A stretch of DNA of 46,210 nt, taken from positions 1-46,210 of the forward strand of contig NZ_MDWE01000026.1 in the NCBI RefSeq assembly GCF_001715195.1, in the 5' to 3' direction. Shown piece after piece: positions 9,976 to 22,774 of the stretch. Below the pieces are notes generated by a model. It did not search any database. It was not told the origin of the DNA and saw only the letters and a list, made by a program, of their open reading frames with translations. Numbering within the stretch: position 1 is the stretch's first letter; every line of letters starts with the position of its first letter. The DNA comes from Rhodohalobacter halophilus. GTDB taxonomy: Bacteria > Bacteroidota > Rhodothermia > Balneolales > Balneolaceae. The translations under genes and the position numbers were made by a program.

Positions 9976-11334
9976 ATGATAAACAGTCTGCTCAAGGTAT
10001 TATTAGCAACTCTACTCTTTACTTCCTTATCTGTTAACCTTAATGCACAGAGTGTTCCTATTGATTTTAGCCGGGTCGATACGGCTGAAGTGGATTCAAT
10101 TTTTTCTGACTATACGATTGATACACCGGGATGTGCATTGGGCGTAACACATCAGGGTAGTCTGATCTATTCAAAAGGTTATGGAATGGCCAACATGGAT
10201 TATGGAATTCCAATTCAGCCCGACTCAAAATTTATGATTGCTTCCATCTCTAAACAGTTTGCAGCTGCAGCCCTGTTGATGATGGAGCAGGAGGGACTAC
10301 TTGACCTGGATGAGAACCTGCAGACATATATACCCGAACTGCCGGATTATGAAATTCCCATTACTTCCCGGCAAATGATTCATCACACCTCCGGAATGAG
10401 GGATCTGTTCAGTTTACTGGCACTCAATGATGTGGGGCTGGATAATACCACAACACCGGAGGCGACGTTTGAGTTGCTTACCCGAATTAGCCGGTTGAAC
10501 ACAGAGCCTAACACCAAGTACAACTACAGCAACAGCACCTACTTTTTAATGTCTGTCCTGGTTGAAAATTTGACGGGTAAAACACTCCGGGAATATACCA
10601 AAGAGCACTTTTTTGATCCGATTGGGATGGATGATACCCACTTCCATGATGATACCGGAATGATTGTAAAAAACAGGGCAGAGAGCTACCGGCCCACAGG
10701 AAATGGAGTCGGTCGTTTCTACCGCGATAACCTTGATCGGGTAGGTGCACGCGGTCTTTTTACAACGATTGAAGATTTTGCCAAATGGGACGCCAATTTT
10801 TTGGAGAATCGGTCGAACCTGGAGAATTTCAGAGAAAAGATGTTAAGTGTTGGAGTATTTAATGATGGTACAGAGATGGATTATGCAGCCGGCATTCGGT
10901 TAAGTGAGTACCGGAAAATCGACACGTTTGGGCATGGCGGGAACTATATGGGATTCCGGACCAACTATATGCACTTTCCTGACTATGAGCTCGGGATTAT
11001 CGTTTTTTGTAACAGAAGTAATATCAGCCCGGCAGCGCACTCTCGTGAAGTGGCTGATGTGTATCTCCGAGACGCTTATTCGGAAATTTTCAACGAGTAT
11101 GTTGGAGAGTACCACAATGACTCATTTCGCACCTCATTTGATGTGATAAGCGAGGACGGTAAACTATATTTGCTGAGAGGGTTACGCCAAAAAGAGGAGT
11201 TGAGCTGGAGCAGAAATGATGAATTCAGGGCCGGAGGATTTTCCGTCAAATTTATCAGAAACGGGAATGGAATCGAGTCGATGAAACTGAGTTCCGGTCG
11301 AACGGCCAACATAACTTTTGAACGAAAGAACTGA
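9976..11334 (+). CDS. Beta-lactamase-family (class C-like) serine hydrolase, first copy
   Basis: A 452-residue secreted hydrolase of the Beta-lactamase (PF00144) superfamily, which includes D-aminopeptidases, esterases and penicillin-binding proteins. It has a signal peptide to about residue 24, then the catalytic S90-x-x-K93 (ASISKQ), the YSN triad (YNYSNSTYFL) and the HGG triad (FGHGGNYMGF), all in the right order. A C-terminal extension of about 100 residues resembles the small beta-domain found in related peptidases. It is followed 12 bp later by a clear paralogue in the same orientation, so the pair arose by tandem duplication. Substrate unknown; resistance to beta-lactams should not be assumed. 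Confidence 0.85.
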   Translation: MINSLLKVLLATLLFTSLSVNLNAQSVPIDFSRVDTAEVDSIFSDYTIDTPGCALGVTHQGSLIYSKGYGMANMDYGIPIQPDSKFMIASISKQFAAAALLMMEQEGLLDLDENLQTYIPELPDYEIPITSRQMIHHTSGMRDLFSLLALNDVGLDNTTTPEATFELLTRISRLNTEPNTKYNYSNSTYFLMSVLVENLTGKTLREYTKEHFFDPIGMDDTHFHDDTGMIVKNRAESYRPTGNGVGRFYRDNLDRVGARGLFTTIEDFAKWDANFLENRSNLENFREKMLSVGVFNDGTEMDYAAGIRLSEYRKIDTFGHGGNYMGFRTNYMHFPDYELGIIVFCNRSNISPAAHSREVADVYLRDAYSEIFNEYVGEYHNDSFRTSFDVISEDGKLYLLRGLRQKEELSWSRNDEFRAGGFSVKFIRNGNGIESMKLSSGRTANITFERKN

Positions 11335-11346
11335 CAGATCAAACCT

Positions 11347-12720
11347 ATGAAACGATATTTACAACTCTCACTGATAGCGGTACTGCTCGCTTCAATCCAT
11401 ACGGATATTCTCTGCGCTCAAACGGTTTCTAATGGACTGAATGATAGAGTGGATGAAATTTTTTCGCAGTACGACGGAGATGAAATTCCCGGCTGTGCGG
11501 TTTCCATATTTCAAGACGGTCAGTCAATTTTTAACAAAGGATATGGTATTGCAAATCTCGACTACGGAATAGAAATCAGTGATTCCACCCGGTTTTATAT
11601 GGCGTCTGTATCGAAGCATGTTACCGCATCTGCGGCTCAGCTGTTGATTATTCGCGGCGAGCTCGACGAACATGCTCCGGTTGGCGAATATGTTGAGGAG
11701 TGGCCGGAATGGGCATCGGAAGTTCGCGTACATCACTTGTTTAATCACACCTCTGGTCTGCCTGATATTTACGGTTTGATGCGAATTGGCGGGATGGATA
11801 TTAACGACGTGATGGATCTTGAGGATTACATTGAAGTGATCAAAAAAGGGGAGGAGTTAATGTTTGAGCCGGGATCGGACTACTCCTACACCAATAGCGG
11901 GTACTCTCTGCTGGCTTATCTGGTTGAGGAGATAAGCGGATTGAGTTTTCCCGAATTTGTACATGAAGAGTTCTTTGAACCGTTTGGCATGAATGCTTCT
12001 CATTTTCACAACGACCGGACTTTAATTATTCCAAACCGTGCGATCAGCTACCAGGTATCCGGTGGAAACATCCGGCGATCATACCCCGGTAATTTTCAGG
12101 GTGTAGGTGGCGGCGGACTCTACACTACCCTTCAGGATTGGGAGAAGTGGGAGCAGTTTTGGAATGGAAGTTTGAGCTGGGAAGGCGGTATTTCACAAGA
12201 TGAAGCTAATCAACTGAAGGAGAGTTTATTGGCCCCTTCATTTGCCGGTGGTGAGGAGATTCCGTACCGAAGGGGGCTGCGTATGGAGGATCGAAAAGGG
12301 GTCAGAAATGTTAATCACGGCGGATCTTTTCAAGGATTCAAAACACACTATTCCCGATATCCTGATGCGGGATATTCGATGGTTACGGTTTGCAATCGCG
12401 GTGATGCAGACCCCGGCTCACTGAATGGCGATATCGCAGATTTTATTCTTCAGGAACAGTTTGAAAACTACCTCAGTGAATATACAGGTCGATTTGTGAA
12501 TGATGAGCTTCCTGCTGAGTATCTGTTGAAGGTAGAAGATGGTAATCTGCATTTAGAAAGAAGGCTGAGCCCAAATGGTAGAATGAACGAGGTTGAAAGA
12601 GATGTTTGGGAAGCAGGATCGTGGGATTTTGAGTTTTTTAGGGATGAGAACGGTGAAATCGCGGGCTTTTTAGTGACAACCGGACGGGCTGAAAATGTGG
12701 AGTTTTTGAAGGCTGATTGA
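11347..12720 (+). CDS. Beta-lactamase-family (class C-like) serine hydrolase, second copy
   Basis: A 457-residue paralogue of the preceding gene with the same architecture: signal peptide, S87-x-x-K90 (ASVSKHV), the second-triad tyrosine in YSYTNSGYSLL, and HGG in VNHGGSFQGF. The two differ through much of their length but share landmarks such as FNKGYGIANLDYGI versus YSKGYGMANMDYGI, LYTTLQDWEKW versus LFTTIEDFAKW, and the FHNDR/FHDDT segment. This suggests an old duplication with divergent specificity. The gene is followed by a strong hairpin terminator. It probably belongs to one unit with the GlsB-like gene and the first copy. Confidence 0.85.
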   Translation: MKRYLQLSLIAVLLASIHTDILCAQTVSNGLNDRVDEIFSQYDGDEIPGCAVSIFQDGQSIFNKGYGIANLDYGIEISDSTRFYMASVSKHVTASAAQLLIIRGELDEHAPVGEYVEEWPEWASEVRVHHLFNHTSGLPDIYGLMRIGGMDINDVMDLEDYIEVIKKGEELMFEPGSDYSYTNSGYSLLAYLVEEISGLSFPEFVHEEFFEPFGMNASHFHNDRTLIIPNRAISYQVSGGNIRRSYPGNFQGVGGGGLYTTLQDWEKWEQFWNGSLSWEGGISQDEANQLKESLLAPSFAGGEEIPYRRGLRMEDRKGVRNVNHGGSFQGFKTHYSRYPDAGYSMVTVCNRGDADPGSLNGDIADFILQEQFENYLSEYTGRFVNDELPAEYLLKVEDGNLHLERRLSPNGRMNEVERDVWEAGSWDFEFFRDENGEIAGFLVTTGRAENVEFLKAD

Positions 12721-12809: not shown

Positions 12810-15119
12810 TTAGAACCGAATGCTAACCTCTGCAAAGAACCGTTGTCCGGGTTCCGGCAAGTAGCCGCCGGATGGATTCTCCATGGTGTTAAACTGACGA
12901 TTCAGGTGTTCGTAGTAATTTTCATCGAACAGGTTGCGAACACCGCCCGAGAGCGTAACTCCGTTAATCAGTGGAGAGGCAAAGGTGATGTCTGTTAACC
13001 AGAATCCCGGTGACCGGTTTTCCCCAAACTCTTCATTATAGCGTGTTTGCGGGAATACTCTTCGAATGTTCAGTACCGGGAATATCTTTCCTGACAACAT
13101 AGAGCCATTTAACTGTAGTGTGGTTTCAAGTGGTGGAATTTCCGCTACAGCCTCACCTGAATCTGTGTATTCGGCATACGTGTAGGAGCTGTTGAAACCG
13201 GCTGACCAGCTTTCAGAGAATTGATATTGAAAGCCCAGTTCAAATCCTGTAAAAAGAGCATCTCCCCGGTTATCAAACTCACGAACTCCAGGGGCGCCCA
13301 TTCCTACAGGAGTCAGGTCGGGGTTGATGACTGCAGATATGTAGTTTGTCATATAGGATGCAAACAGTGTCGATTCAACGTTAAAACGTCCCAGGTTTGA
13401 TTTGATGACCAGGTCGGCCTGATTGTTGGCTTCGGGGTCCAAATCCGGGTTGCCGGCATACTCATAACTGTCTCGGCCAATGGTTAGGTAGTTGATGAAG
13501 CGCTCGGTTACGTCAGGACTGCGAACACCCCGGCCCAGATAGAGTCCCATACTGGTCGATGAACTGATTTGACGTGTAACCCCCAGGCTCAAACTAAGAT
13601 TGAGATGTTCTGAACGGTTATCAAGTCCTGCAAAACGTGGAGCAGGATCATTTGAGTCCGCCCGGTTCAGGTCCAATCGTGATCCGGCAGATAGCGTCCA
13701 CTGGTCGATAAAATGTTCAATACCTGCATACAGACCCGCGTTAAAGACCTCGGCATCCTGCCATAGGTTATAGGTCATGCTACTTCCGGCCTGTGGCCCC
13801 ATTTTAATGTCTACATAGCGGGTTCCGGTCACATCGAGCTGATCGAACCCACCCGCAATGGTGTACGAACCGGACTCGTAAAGACCTTTGAAGGATCCGT
13901 GTACACCGTATGTTTCTGTTTCGGCAAGAGCAACAGCATCCCTCATCTCGAAAGAAGAGCGGTCATGGTTATTCATTTCATGATCCACCAGACTCCAGTA
14001 TCCGTTTAGTTCAAGCGAAGAGACAGACTCATTCTGAGCCGGTTTCCACTCGTACCCGCTTTTGAACTTGTAGGTGTCATCTACAGCCATATCCATCATT
14101 AGAGCAGGGAAATCGGCGTCTCTGATAAAGGATTGAGACCAACCTGCTGTGATTCGATGTGAAGGTGCGATACGTAACCCGCCTTCAATACCGTAATCAT
14201 ACGATTCAAACCCGGAGGCGACTTCCTGTCCGTTACCCCCGGTGTAGTTACCGGTTGAGGAGAGTCCACCACTCAGCAGAAAGTTCCATATATCGGTTCC
14301 ACCCTGAAGCCGGGCATCGGTTTTTCTGTGATTGGTGTTACTTTCAAACCCGGCTCTAACGTCTCCGTTCATTCCAAAATCGATGTAATCAGGTGTCGGG
14401 TGACTCACAAAATTGACGGTTCCGCCAAACGAAGGACCATACTTTAAGGCGTGTGGCCCGCGATGAATTTCAACCCTCTCTATATCACTCAGGCGAATGT
14501 GAGAGGTTGGCGGGTCCATACGGTTTGGACATGCCGCAGCCGTTGCAGTCAATCCGTCCAAGCGTACATTCAGTCGACTCCCGCTCAACCCTCGGAGAAC
14601 AGGATCGATACCAAAACCGCCTTTTCGGATTCCCGATGCGTTGCCCGCATCTCGTAGAAACTGTCCCGAATCGATGGGTAAAGATGCTGCTTGATCTGTT
14701 CCCATACGGTTTGAGGGTGAGTTCATCACCCGGTGTGAGAGAACGGTGATCGGACTCATCATTTCAGAGGCCGGTGAGAGCTTAAAATGAAGTGGATCTC
14801 CGGAGTAGAGTTCACTTTGGGAGAGTGATCTTGTTAACGGACGAAAACCGATATGAGTGATCCGCACGGTTGCTTCAGTAAGATTTTCGCTTACGGTTAA
14901 CGAAAATTGACCATGTTCATCAGAAACTGCAGAAAGCTGTTCACTCTCTATTTGAACATGAGCGCCCGCTACCGGCTGAAGGTCATCAGCCGAGAGGATT
15001 AATCCGGATATGATTCTGTTGTTTTGTTGATTGATAGCATCAGATAATGGGGTTGTCGCAGCTTCAACTCCAAACATGGGGAGCAGAAACAGGACAATAA
15101 AGAATTTTAATAAAGACAT
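12810..15119 (-). CDS. TonB-dependent copper receptor, OprC-like
   Basis: A 769-residue outer-membrane TonB receptor: signal peptide (to about residue 20), carboxypeptidase-regulatory-like domain (about 35-115), plug (about 130-260), and a beta-barrel ending in FFAEVSIRF. The plug contains TAAACPNRMDPPTSHI, giving C197-x-x-x-M201, and the barrel contains VDHEMNNH, giving H380-x-M382. In Pseudomonas OprC the copper site is CxxxM plus HxM (C143, M147, H323, M325) with nearly the same separation: 183 residues between C and H here, 180 there. This is strong evidence for copper import. The gene upstream encodes a Cys/His/Met-rich small protein in the same direction, supporting a copper operon. Confidence 0.9.
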   Translation of the reverse strand: MSLLKFFIVLFLLPMFGVEAATTPLSDAINQQNNRIISGLILSADDLQPVAGAHVQIESEQLSAVSDEHGQFSLTVSENLTEATVRITHIGFRPLTRSLSQSELYSGDPLHFKLSPASEMMSPITVLSHRVMNSPSNRMGTDQAASLPIDSGQFLRDAGNASGIRKGGFGIDPVLRGLSGSRLNVRLDGLTATAAACPNRMDPPTSHIRLSDIERVEIHRGPHALKYGPSFGGTVNFVSHPTPDYIDFGMNGDVRAGFESNTNHRKTDARLQGGTDIWNFLLSGGLSSTGNYTGGNGQEVASGFESYDYGIEGGLRIAPSHRITAGWSQSFIRDADFPALMMDMAVDDTYKFKSGYEWKPAQNESVSSLELNGYWSLVDHEMNNHDRSSFEMRDAVALAETETYGVHGSFKGLYESGSYTIAGGFDQLDVTGTRYVDIKMGPQAGSSMTYNLWQDAEVFNAGLYAGIEHFIDQWTLSAGSRLDLNRADSNDPAPRFAGLDNRSEHLNLSLSLGVTRQISSSTSMGLYLGRGVRSPDVTERFINYLTIGRDSYEYAGNPDLDPEANNQADLVIKSNLGRFNVESTLFASYMTNYISAVINPDLTPVGMGAPGVREFDNRGDALFTGFELGFQYQFSESWSAGFNSSYTYAEYTDSGEAVAEIPPLETTLQLNGSMLSGKIFPVLNIRRVFPQTRYNEEFGENRSPGFWLTDITFASPLINGVTLSGGVRNLFDENYYEHLNRQFNTMENPSGGYLPEPGQRFFAEVSIRF

Positions 15120-15240
15120 AATTCATTCTTGAATATGTTAGTGAATGGCTTCCAGTTTTGACGGAAAGATCCACCGATCCCAACTGCGGAATGATGAGCC
15201 CGTCAAAAATTAAAAGCTGTTAAATAGTTGTTTGATATTA

Positions 15241-15265
15241 CTTCAGCCCTTTTTTTTTGCTGAAG
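15241..15265. other. Hairpin between the two copper-operon genes
   Basis: CTTCAGC and GCTGAAG form a perfect 7-bp stem around an 11-base loop that is a T run on the plus strand (A run in the operon transcript). It lies 18 bp past the stop of the Cys-rich gene. No U-tract follows in the transcript, so it may stabilise or attenuate mRNA rather than terminate. Confidence 0.35.
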
Positions 15266-15282
15266 TTTTGAGGATGGATGAA

Positions 15283-15756
15283 TTAGCTTTGTGGAGGATG
15301 AAAAATATCTTTTTGAAAGAAGGAGAGGTTTGACTGATGAAGTTGTTTAAAAAATCGTTTGTCAAAAATCAGTTTAGCATTGCCGGATTCGGCAAGTAAA
15401 GCAGTCTTGTCCAGCGTATTGAACAGGATGTGCATTTGGCCGGGCGCGCCTTTCTGGCACCCGCAGACAGATTCACCGCTGGCGGTTTGAGTCATATCAC
15501 AATGAGCCGGCTTTTCTTCGCTGCCGTGCTTCTCCGCGCTGTGTGATGAATCATGACTCTTGTCCATCTCCATATCGATGGCGCAGTGTTCCGTTCCGCT
15601 ATTCGTATCGTGAGAACATCCGATACAGGTACAAAAATGTGCGACTTTTTCTCCATCGGTAAACAGCGAATACCCCACAATAGCAACCTTGCTGATCTCC
15701 GTCATGGAGAAGAGCAGGGTGAGCGTGAGGAATATGGAACCAATGGACTGCTTCAT
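15283..15756 (-). CDS. Cys/His/Met-rich small protein of the copper operon
   Basis: A 157-residue protein with an N-terminal hydrophobic segment (about 5-19, possibly a signal or anchor). The central region is crowded with soft-metal ligands: HFCTCIGCSHD, EHCAIDMEMDKSHDSSHS, HGSEEKPAHCDM and SVCGCQKG. The C-terminal third is low in cysteine. No established family was recognised. Ligand density and position directly upstream of an OprC-like copper receptor point to copper binding, storage or sensing in the periplasm. It is the first gene of the minus-strand operon, with a promoter-like element 20-50 bp upstream. The function is inferred from composition and context. Confidence 0.7.
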   Translation of the reverse strand: MKQSIGSIFLTLTLLFSMTEISKVAIVGYSLFTDGEKVAHFCTCIGCSHDTNSGTEHCAIDMEMDKSHDSSHSAEKHGSEEKPAHCDMTQTASGESVCGCQKGAPGQMHILFNTLDKTALLAESGNAKLIFDKRFFKQLHQSNLSFFQKDIFHPPQS

Positions 15757-15774
15757 AAAATCTTGAAGTTTTAT

Positions 15775-15805
15775 TAAAGATAATGTTGTCCGAAATAAAG
15801 GTCAA
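15775..15805 (-). promoter_or_regulatory. Promoter of the copper operon
   Basis: On the minus strand TTGACC (15805-15800) and TATCTTTA (15782-15775) are separated by 17 bases. The second element fits the Bacteroidota TANNTTTG -7 box in 7 of 8 positions. The start codon at 15756 is about 19 bases farther on. Confidence 0.5.
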
Positions 15806-15916: not shown

Positions 15917-17395
15917 ATGGAATTAAAAGTAGATATGAGAACAAATCGATATACTCTATTTGCGATATTTTTATTGATGTTATTTGTAAACAGCAGGGAC
16001 TCGCTACATGCACAACAGAGTAGCGGGTTTGCCACACTGATAGAGTGGGAGCAGAGAACCCTCAATTTTATGCTCGATCGCAGCCACAATTTCGGAGCCA
16101 CGCATTACAACCGCGGACTTTTCAGGAGAACCATCAATCCAATGAGTCCGGAACACGAAATTGACCTCCTCACGTACCGATATACCTACTTGGATGATTA
16201 CCGATGGCACACGGCTGATCAAGCCTACCGGCTTTCTGTTGGCAGCCTGAATGCGACCAATTTTGCCATTGAGAACAAGATAAAGATGAACTACCGTCCC
16301 GGGGATCGCCATCTTGTTAAGGTTGATGGTTTTCATGAAGAGAATTTGCGTACAGACCGGTTTCTGTTTCGTTTGGGATATGAATATCAGCTAAAAAACC
16401 GTCATCAAATAGGTGCAGAACACACGCTTAGCCGGGATAAAAGTGATCTCGACATAACGCTATATTACAAATATGGCGACATCGAAAATGGAATGATCTA
16501 TGCCGGGTTTACATGGATGGATTGGGGTGCAGGCGTTGTGCAGGACTTGGCTGAAGGAAGCGACAACGAGTGGAATGACCGTTACGAACTCGTTTATGAA
16601 TACGGCAAACATCCTTTTCTTTATAACATCAAAATTGTTTCGCCTGAAATTGGAAATTTCAAAGCAGAAATTCTGGCCGGCATCCAGACAAAATTAGAGA
16701 AAGAGGTGCGCTCTACATCCGATCCGGGTCAAATATTTTCTGATGAAGAGTGGGCTCACTATCTGGGAGCACTCGCTCAATACAGCCATCCGTTCGGTTT
16801 GATTGGTGTCACCTATCAGCGAAGGTTTTCAAAACTGATTCGTCAGCCGGTTCCGGGTTCAGATTTTATTGAGGATTTTAGCAATCGGCAGTACAGCGAT
16901 CGGGGAGGTTTTTTTGTGACGGGAACGTACAGAAACTTCAGTGCAGAACAGTGGATGTGGCTCGAACGGAATGTGGACAGTCTGCAAGGGGAGACCGTAC
17001 CCGGTGATCTGGCTCCAAACTACAGTAATGTAGGCAGACAACCCTTCCATTTTGTTGAACAGAGATTGAAAATGAAGAGCAGAATTCTGTATGGCTCCGA
17101 TCGAAAGGGGATTCAGCTCGGTCTGGAGTTTCATGCGGATTATCGCTATCCCGAAGGGGATCCCCATCCCGATAATGGAGTCAGAAATCTCGATTTTCGA
17201 AGAGTGTATCCTACCGTCAGAAACAGAAATGATCGGTTAACCTTTACAATCGGATATCGGGTGAATGAAAAATTTCATTTCTTAGCCGGTGTCTCTTACG
17301 ATATAGATCAGGATAAGCAGTCCGGCATTGGGTATCCAAGAGAACCGGGCAGCCGCTTTGATGGAGGATTTGGAAGACTATCCGTAGAGTGGTGA
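15917..17395 (+). CDS. Outer-membrane beta-barrel protein of unknown function
   Basis: A 492-residue protein with an N-terminal signal peptide (cleavage probably after LHAQ, near residue 33). A long run of alternating amphipathic strands rich in Tyr, Arg and Asp follows, ending in GGFGRLSVEW, a terminal aromatic strand typical of outer-membrane barrels. No plug or TonB box and no recognised family. The ATG at 15917 has GGAGAG five bases upstream; an internal Met at residue 7 is an alternative. It is divergent from the copper operon and followed by a convergent gene, so it is transcribed alone. It could be a porin-like or alginate-export-like protein; the sequence does not decide. Confidence 0.6.
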   Translation: MELKVDMRTNRYTLFAIFLLMLFVNSRDSLHAQQSSGFATLIEWEQRTLNFMLDRSHNFGATHYNRGLFRRTINPMSPEHEIDLLTYRYTYLDDYRWHTADQAYRLSVGSLNATNFAIENKIKMNYRPGDRHLVKVDGFHEENLRTDRFLFRLGYEYQLKNRHQIGAEHTLSRDKSDLDITLYYKYGDIENGMIYAGFTWMDWGAGVVQDLAEGSDNEWNDRYELVYEYGKHPFLYNIKIVSPEIGNFKAEILAGIQTKLEKEVRSTSDPGQIFSDEEWAHYLGALAQYSHPFGLIGVTYQRRFSKLIRQPVPGSDFIEDFSNRQYSDRGGFFVTGTYRNFSAEQWMWLERNVDSLQGETVPGDLAPNYSNVGRQPFHFVEQRLKMKSRILYGSDRKGIQLGLEFHADYRYPEGDPHPDNGVRNLDFRRVYPTVRNRNDRLTFTIGYRVNEKFHFLAGVSYDIDQDKQSGIGYPREPGSRFDGGFGRLSVEW

Positions 17396-21763: not shown

Positions 21764-22774
21764 ATGAAACAGCTCATGGTACTTATCGTCTCTGCACTGC
21801 TATTTTTTTCTTGCAGTGATCAGGATGAAGTGAACATCTACTCTTCTCGCCATTATGATACAGATCTTGAACTCTACAGTCAGTTTACGGAAGAGACAGG
21901 TATAGAAATAAATCTCATTGAAGGCTCAAGTGATGAACTTATTGAGCGGATGCGCAATGAAGGGATAAATAGTCCCGCAGATGTAGTAATAACCGTTGAT
22001 GCTGGCAGACTTTGGAGAGCCAAGGAAGCCGGAGTTCTTCAGCCTCTCAATTCGGAATATCTGAATGAAGTAATTCCTGCTCAGTTTCGCGATGTAGATG
22101 ATATGTGGGTTGGATTATCAGAAAGAGTTCGTGGAATTATTTACAACAAAGAGAGTGTAGATCCCGCCGATTTACGCGGATATCTTGATCTTGCAGAGGA
22201 AAAGTGGAACGGCAGGGTTTGTGTTCGTTCGTCCAACAATATTTATAACCAATCGCTGGTAGCGTCTTTGATTGAAAGCCATGGAGAGGAGCGTGTGGAA
22301 GAGTGGGCCGAAGGTTTGGTCAACAATTTTGCTCGTGACCCGCAAGGCGGCGACACAGATCAGATCAGAGCCGTTGCTGCCGGACTCTGTGACGTTGCTT
22401 TAGCCAACCATTACTATCTCGCGCGATTGATGCAATCGGATGATGCTCAAGATCTTGAAGTGGCCGGAAAAGTTGGCATCTACTTCCCGGATGCGGAATA
22501 TGGAGGAGCACATGTTAATATCAGCGGTGCCGGAATTGCAGCAAATTCACCAAACCGGGAGAATGCTCTTCGATTTATCGAGTATCTGGCTACCGATGAT
22601 GCCCAACAGCTCTATTCGATTGGCAACAATGAGTTTCCGATTCTTGAGTCGATGGAGGTTCCCGGAGTACTCGGCGACTTTGGTTCTTTCGACAGTGATG
22701 CCGTGAATGTTACTTCCTACGGGGAGAACAACCCGCTGGCCATTCGGTTAATGGACAGAGTGGGTTGGAGATAA
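21764..22774 (+). CDS. Iron(III)-binding ABC-transporter substrate-binding lipoprotein
   Basis: A 336-residue periplasmic binding protein of the FbpA/FutA type, lipid-anchored through C17 (ALLFFSC). The start of the mature domain (NIYSSRHYDTD) is typical of ferric-binding FutA-like proteins. The adjacent tyrosines Y217-Y218 (ANHYYLARL) correspond to the YY iron ligands of the family, and Y26 and Y31 may also contribute. It would deliver Fe3+ to an inner-membrane permease. No permease or ATPase gene lies next to it: the next gene is a convergent adenosine deaminase. The transporter partners must therefore be encoded elsewhere. Family is confident; metal inferred from the tyrosines. Confidence 0.85.
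   Translation: MKQLMVLIVSALLFFSCSDQDEVNIYSSRHYDTDLELYSQFTEETGIEINLIEGSSDELIERMRNEGINSPADVVITVDAGRLWRAKEAGVLQPLNSEYLNEVIPAQFRDVDDMWVGLSERVRGIIYNKESVDPADLRGYLDLAEEKWNGRVCVRSSNNIYNQSLVASLIESHGEERVEEWAEGLVNNFARDPQGGDTDQIRAVAAGLCDVALANHYYLARLMQSDDAQDLEVAGKVGIYFPDAEYGGAHVNISGAGIAANSPNRENALRFIEYLATDDAQQLYSIGNNEFPILESMEVPGVLGDFGSFDSDAVNVTSYGENNPLAIRLMDRVGWR

Follow-up and report, generated by a model that had tools for sequence, protein, structure and literature searches.

A Cys-rich upstream ORF ending in FHPP, a candidate copper-sensing arrest peptide, precedes OprC-like receptor genes in Balneolota and Bacteroidota

In Bordetella pertussis the operon of a copper TonB-dependent receptor is headed by a copper-responsive upstream ORF (uORF) encoding the DUF2946 protein CruR, and a cruR homologue likewise precedes oprC in Pseudomonas aeruginosa (PMC9426467). 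CruR carries a CxxC motif followed by 45 intervening residues and a C-terminal RAPP motif. Arrest at RAPP has been demonstrated in vitro, and no RAPP/RGPP uORFs ahead of copper-related genes were reported in Bacteroidota (PMC12992588). In E. coli, H, R, Q and K belong to the residues X that promote stalling at XPPP, and an earlier E. coli study, as cited in the same paper, saw no stall at plain RPP (PMC4176338). A second system is CutF, a sensor of extracytoplasmic copper with a signal peptide, a CxxxC motif and a proline-rich C terminus; the CutF-like set includes many Bacteroidota and TonB-receptor neighbors (PMC9973294). Among receptors, an OprC-like protein with the CxxxM/HxM site has already been described in the Bacteroidota, in Bizionia (PMC11213822), and the receptor reported below thus belongs to a known kind.

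The window analyzed here, 46,210 nucleotides of Rhodohalobacter halophilus DNA, holds a small ORF as first gene and a receptor gene as second, separated by 163 nt. The neighboring genes are divergent (15917-17395) on one side and convergent (serine-hydrolase-like genes, 9976-12720) on the other, so the operon appears to consist of these two genes. A few kb from it, a plus-strand gene at 21764-22774 resembles, as judged by eye from its translation, an iron(III) ABC-transporter substrate-binding protein. The features to which we refer are:

12810..15119, minus strand: OprC-like TonB-dependent copper receptor, 769 aa, with an N-terminal CarboxypepD_reg_2 domain
13974..13982, minus strand: HEM codons (residues 380-382), barrel half of the predicted copper site, from motif position, conservation and OprC alignment
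14517..14531, minus strand: CPNRM codons (residues 197-201), plug half of the predicted copper site, from the same three kinds of evidence
15120..15282, minus strand: leader of 163 nt separating the small ORF from the receptor, considered by sequence and fold
15222..15382, minus strand: C-over-G bubble running from the small ORF's 3' end into the leader, from base composition; candidate Rho loading region
15283..15756, minus strand: Cys/His/Met-rich upstream ORF, 157 aa, whose homologues precede the receptor in Balneolota; proposed copper-sensing arrest-peptide uORF
15292..15303, minus strand: FHPP codons (residues 152-155), two residues before the C terminus, from conservation; proposed arrest motif
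15457..15465, minus strand: CGC codons (C98, C100), Cys motif 54 residues from PP, invariant in 16 homologues with a spacing of 53-55
15773..15794, minus strand: promoter-region element TTCGGACAACATTATCTTTAAT, which some relatives carry as a full TTAAGATAAnnTTATCTTAA-like palindrome; possible operator

The best NCBIfam match of the receptor is TIGR01778 (TonB-copper; E=1.5e-59), with a score of 202 bits that lies below the curated cut-off of 472 bits, and we therefore call the protein OprC-like and not a TIGR01778 equivalog. In a profile search OprC chains were by far its closest PDB relatives (E=5.6e-59), and the profile alignment with OprC (6fok) places ACPNRMD of the receptor on ACPNRMD and H-E-M on H-I-M. 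The preliminary description of this DNA had proposed C197/M201 and H380/M382 as equivalents of the OprC copper ligands, and this holds well: the four residues align with those of OprC and are invariant both in 19 Balneolota receptors and in a set of 82, drawn from Balneolota, Bacteroidota and neighboring groups, whose identity to the window receptor is about 30-72%. C197 is the sole Cys of the protein, and in 2000 shuffles of its sequence CxxxM and HxM co-occurred in 0.7% of cases and at about the observed spacing in 0.05%. A structure model built from 19 sequences has a confident, OprC-like barrel, and the top 28 Foldseek matches of the model were all OprC chains (TM about 0.8 by target length); the plug around residues 159-208 has pLDDT below 50, so that the geometry of the copper site is backed by homology and conservation and not by the model.

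Taken together, assignment as an OprC-type copper-import receptor is strongly supported, with copper binding and TonB-dependent import predicted from sequence. The window receptor shares with OprC/NosA (TIGR01778, the Pseudomonas copper TonB-dependent transporters) the fold, the CxxxM of the plug, the HxM of the barrel wall and a small regulatory-type ORF directly upstream. It differs from them in its N-terminal CarboxypepD_reg_2 domain, in the lack of an adjacent PA3789-like reductase gene and in sequence, with about 20% identity to OprC in the structural alignment.

The first gene of the operon had been described as encoding a 157-residue protein with Cys/His/Met clusters and no recognized family, and our searches bear this out. 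The protein contains seven Cys, ten His and six Met, in part within the clusters CTCIGC, HCAIDMEM, HCDM and CGC, and it matched no Pfam or NCBIfam family; single homologues and the members of its alignment gave no meaningful match either. Membership in DUF2946 was rejected on profile, motif and spacing, all of which disagree, and DUF2946 (PF11162) had no match above its cut-off in any of 59 genomes. HYC_CC_PP, a family of Bacteroidota proteins with PP at the C terminus, was also considered as a relative and gave no match, nor did we find a paper on it. The N terminus is hydrophobic (17-residue mean 1.68) and is predicted to form a helix; the remainder is predicted with low confidence (mean pLDDT 52.5) and is probably disordered. 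A pairwise comparison of the small ORF gave 33, 27 and 83 differences at codon positions 1, 2 and 3, and the FHPP codons vary synonymously among homologues, which indicates that the peptide is the conserved entity. No other small Cys-rich ORF ending in [IV]FHPP was found in the genome; four other matches to the FHPP coding pattern are not the C-terminal ends of such ORFs.

Homologues of the small protein occur in 15 of the 59 genomes searched (that of the window included), directly before the receptor; several are 144-150 aa long and others reach 192 aa. The co-occurrence of the pair, which had been suggested as something to look for in other Balneolota, was thus confirmed there, and it extends well beyond that phylum: a scan of species genomes returned 80 receptor loci, most of them in Bacteroidota and Balneolota. 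For a pairing count we used 86 non-redundant receptor loci, each with at least 500 nt of upstream sequence, and scored as a uORF any ORF on the same strand that has three or more Cys and a PP among its last 20 residues. A Cys-rich uORF with a hydrophobic N terminus and PP near its C terminus lies directly upstream in 81 of the 86 loci, a count that, like the p-values, overstates independence because the loci are related by descent, and that is to be read as strong conservation and not as independent trials. The last motif of these 81 uORFs is FHPP in 54, FRPP in 10 and FKPP in three, and F[H/R]PP, near-invariant, usually stands 2-5 residues before the stop. Nearly all have H, R, Q or K before PP, residues that promote stalling at XPPP in E. 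coli (PMC4176338), and among control ORFs of 90-260 aa from the same loci only 7 of 593 end in a hydrophobic residue followed by [HRKQ]PP.

Two types of uORF can be told apart by their Cys motif. In the 16 homologues of the window type, C98 and C100 of the CxC motif are invariant, as are F152, P154 and P155 (H153 nearly so), and the last Cys stands 53-55 residues before PP. This distance is tightly held (54.2 +/- 0.66 residues, n=16), and the standard deviation from the initial Met to the Cys is 21.8. The wider type, from Bacteroidota, has C-x9-C-x3-C, as in 'NKDKPELKCNGKCHL', at 64-71 residues from PP, with a mean of 67.5 +/- 1.82 (n=65) against a standard deviation of 12.8 for Met to Cys. 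Within the gapless spacer, identity is 0.28 in the window type and 0.19 in the wider type; over the five residues ending in PP it is 0.85 and 0.72, respectively. A profile comparison of the two types found only the IFHPP end in common. Nothing in the small ORF is better conserved than the IFHPP terminus and its fixed distance from CGC, and the preliminary description missed both.

These features bear on what the small protein does. Two plasmid-borne OprC-type genes of Proteobacteria each have a DUF2946 ORF upstream that contains CGYC and RAPP, the last Cys lying 49 residues before PP, and the FHPP proteins of Balneolota and Bacteroidota fill the same slot as DUF2946/CruR before proteobacterial OprC-type genes. 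Like CruR, the window protein is the product of the first gene of a copper TonB-receptor operon, has an export-type N terminus and bears a Cys motif at a fixed distance from a proline motif 2-3 residues from its C-terminal end; it is predicted to be unfolded past its N-terminal helix, as CruR reportedly is, and in both systems a C-over-G bubble is combined with a long leader. The differences are also plain. The window protein has no DUF2946 match, ends in FHPP and not RAPP, is richer in Cys, His and Met, and has its CxC at 54 residues (the wider type its CxxxC at 67) from PP, compared with 48-49 for the CxxC of CruR, a spacing that is equally rigid and of another value.

The preliminary description had read the operon as copper import with a chaperone partner, and its receptor half stands on the evidence above. 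Its other half, a stable periplasmic or membrane-anchored protein that would take copper from the receptor, draws on the seven Cys, ten His and hydrophobic N terminus, on the Cys/Met clusters that are additional to the fixed CxC, and on protein-level constraint across the whole ORF. Such a protein would have no need of the strongest constraints we see, namely a C-terminal FxPP at a fixed distance across a variable spacer, and both the low predicted order and the position in the CruR/DUF2946 slot argue against it, so that we consider this role unlikely. The FHPP end and the fixed Cys spacing favor a regulatory uORF. Because the terminal FHPP and the fixed internal spacing resemble those of a ribosome-stalling copper sensor, we read the small gene as a probable switch for the level of copper uptake and not as a chaperone gene.

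A further comparison is with CutF and CutF-like proteins (Rhodobacter capsulatus, with clusters in Pseudomonadota and Bacteroidota). The CutF-like criteria are a length under 150 aa, PP in the last 15 residues, a same-strand neighbor within 1 kb and a cleavable Sec signal peptide (PMC9973294). The window protein has the hydrophobic export-type N terminus and the Cys motif of this group, its PP lies two residues from the end, and a copper-related gene follows on the same strand after 163 nt. It differs in its length of 157 aa, which exceeds the filter, in that its downstream gene encodes an importer where that of CutF encodes a multicopper oxidase, and in having no clear start-masking stem-loop. 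The shorter Bacteroidota uORF type may well be included in the CutF-like clusters of PMC9973294.

By analogy with CutF (PMC9973294), the nascent chain could stall during export, sense periplasmic copper and open mRNA structure at the receptor start, with no CruR/Rho route. With its CxxxC about 67 residues before PP, the wider type could expose this motif beyond the membrane while export is still cotranslational, and the longer spacing makes periplasmic sensing more possible there. In 79% of the 81 loci the strongest hairpin past the uORF stop also exceeds that of shuffled sequences. In several lineages (loci L032, L071, L087, L091 and L099) strong hairpins of unrelated sequence begin about 7-30 nt past the stop, and in the window an inverted repeat, ACTTCAGC-N11-GCTGAAGT, lies just 3' of the small ORF within the leader. 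Against this mode, neither hairpin position nor masking of the start codon is consistent between loci, the fold of the window leader has a z-score of only -1.7, and the distance from uORF to receptor ranges from 16 to over 600 nt. Moreover, copper should shut down an importer and not induce it, and we regard a CutF-like mode as improbable, though somewhat less so than a chaperone role.

No intrinsic terminator and no consistent masking of the receptor start turned up in the leader, and neither a consensus terminator nor a start-masking hairpin recurs consistently between loci. At the 81 uORF ends C exceeds G by a mean of +0.11 (window +0.20), compared with -0.02 at other gene ends used as controls; the bubble in the window peaks with C at 0.31 and G at 0.04. 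The genome encodes Rho. Two Rho-like matches were seen (G000:C40:38493-39986 and G000:C13:582-1673), of which one exceeds the family cut-off and the other falls short of it.

The position as first gene of the operon, the Cys motif at a fixed spacing from FHPP, the lack of a predicted fold and the 3' C-over-G bubble fit a CruR-like arrest-peptide uORF. We thus favor, with reasonable confidence and by analogy, the reading that the small gene encodes a CruR/CutF-like nascent-peptide copper sensor that switches receptor expression and belongs to a class with another arrest motif (FHPP) and another spacing. In the mechanism that we infer, ribosomes would translate the small exported Cys-rich peptide and, when copper is scarce, would stall at FHPP near the C terminus. 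While paused there, the ribosome would keep the message open, probably by shielding the C-rich stretch at the uORF end on which Rho might otherwise load, and the OprC-like receptor would be made and would import copper through its C197/M201-H380/M382 site. Copper would then bind the Cys motif about 54 residues from the peptidyl-transferase center, the stall would be released and receptor expression would stop. Arrest at FHPP, copper binding, the part of Rho and the direction of the response are all inferred. Several points count against a sensor: the Arg and Ala that are important in RAPP arrest peptides are absent from FHPP, plain RPP gave no stall in E. coli (cited in PMC4176338), the CTCIGC, HCAIDMEM and HCDM clusters surpass what a minimal sensor needs, the Cys-to-PP spacing is unlike that of CruR, the leader shows neither an intrinsic terminator nor consistent start masking, and not every receptor locus (81 of 86) has a uORF. 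We found no paper on an FHPP arrest motif among the open-licence literature.

More broadly, and with less assurance, the balance of evidence tips toward the view that Bacteroidota and Balneolota use distinct copper-sensing arrest peptides, with FHPP in place of RAPP and two lineage-specific Cys-to-stall spacings, in the control of OprC-type import. If so, a distinct FHPP class would fill, and help explain, the Bacteroidota gap reported for RAPP/RGPP copper uORFs (PMC12992588), would bring copper-sensing translation arrest into a phylum from which RAPP-type copper uORFs had been reported absent, and would suggest repeated invention of nascent-chain copper sensing before the same receptor. What looked like a copper chaperone becomes a testable gene switch, and the FHPP motif and spacing rule can be used to find similar switches and to study copper reading by a nascent chain at varying distance from the ribosome active site.

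Control of the operon could also be mainly transcriptional, with the small protein in some other role. An TTAAGATAAnnTTATCTTAA-like element stands upstream of the uORF in several Balneolota, and in some of them (L026-L028) the palindrome overlaps the likely promoter -7 element; possibly it is an operator for some regulator. The full palindrome was, however, seen solely within part of one clade, and the window copy is imperfect and single in the genome at up to 3 mismatches, a search that found no genome-wide regulon for the element. Mainly transcriptional control would leave the uORF C terminus unexplained, and we hold it to be very improbable.

Under the criteria used here, five of the 86 receptor loci have no uORF. 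Where receptors lack an FHPP uORF (L035/L050 and L041), the gene directly upstream encodes a small exported protein that looks DsrE-like and has a CPMCMQAYGM motif; L041 also carries a His-rich ORF farther upstream of the receptor.
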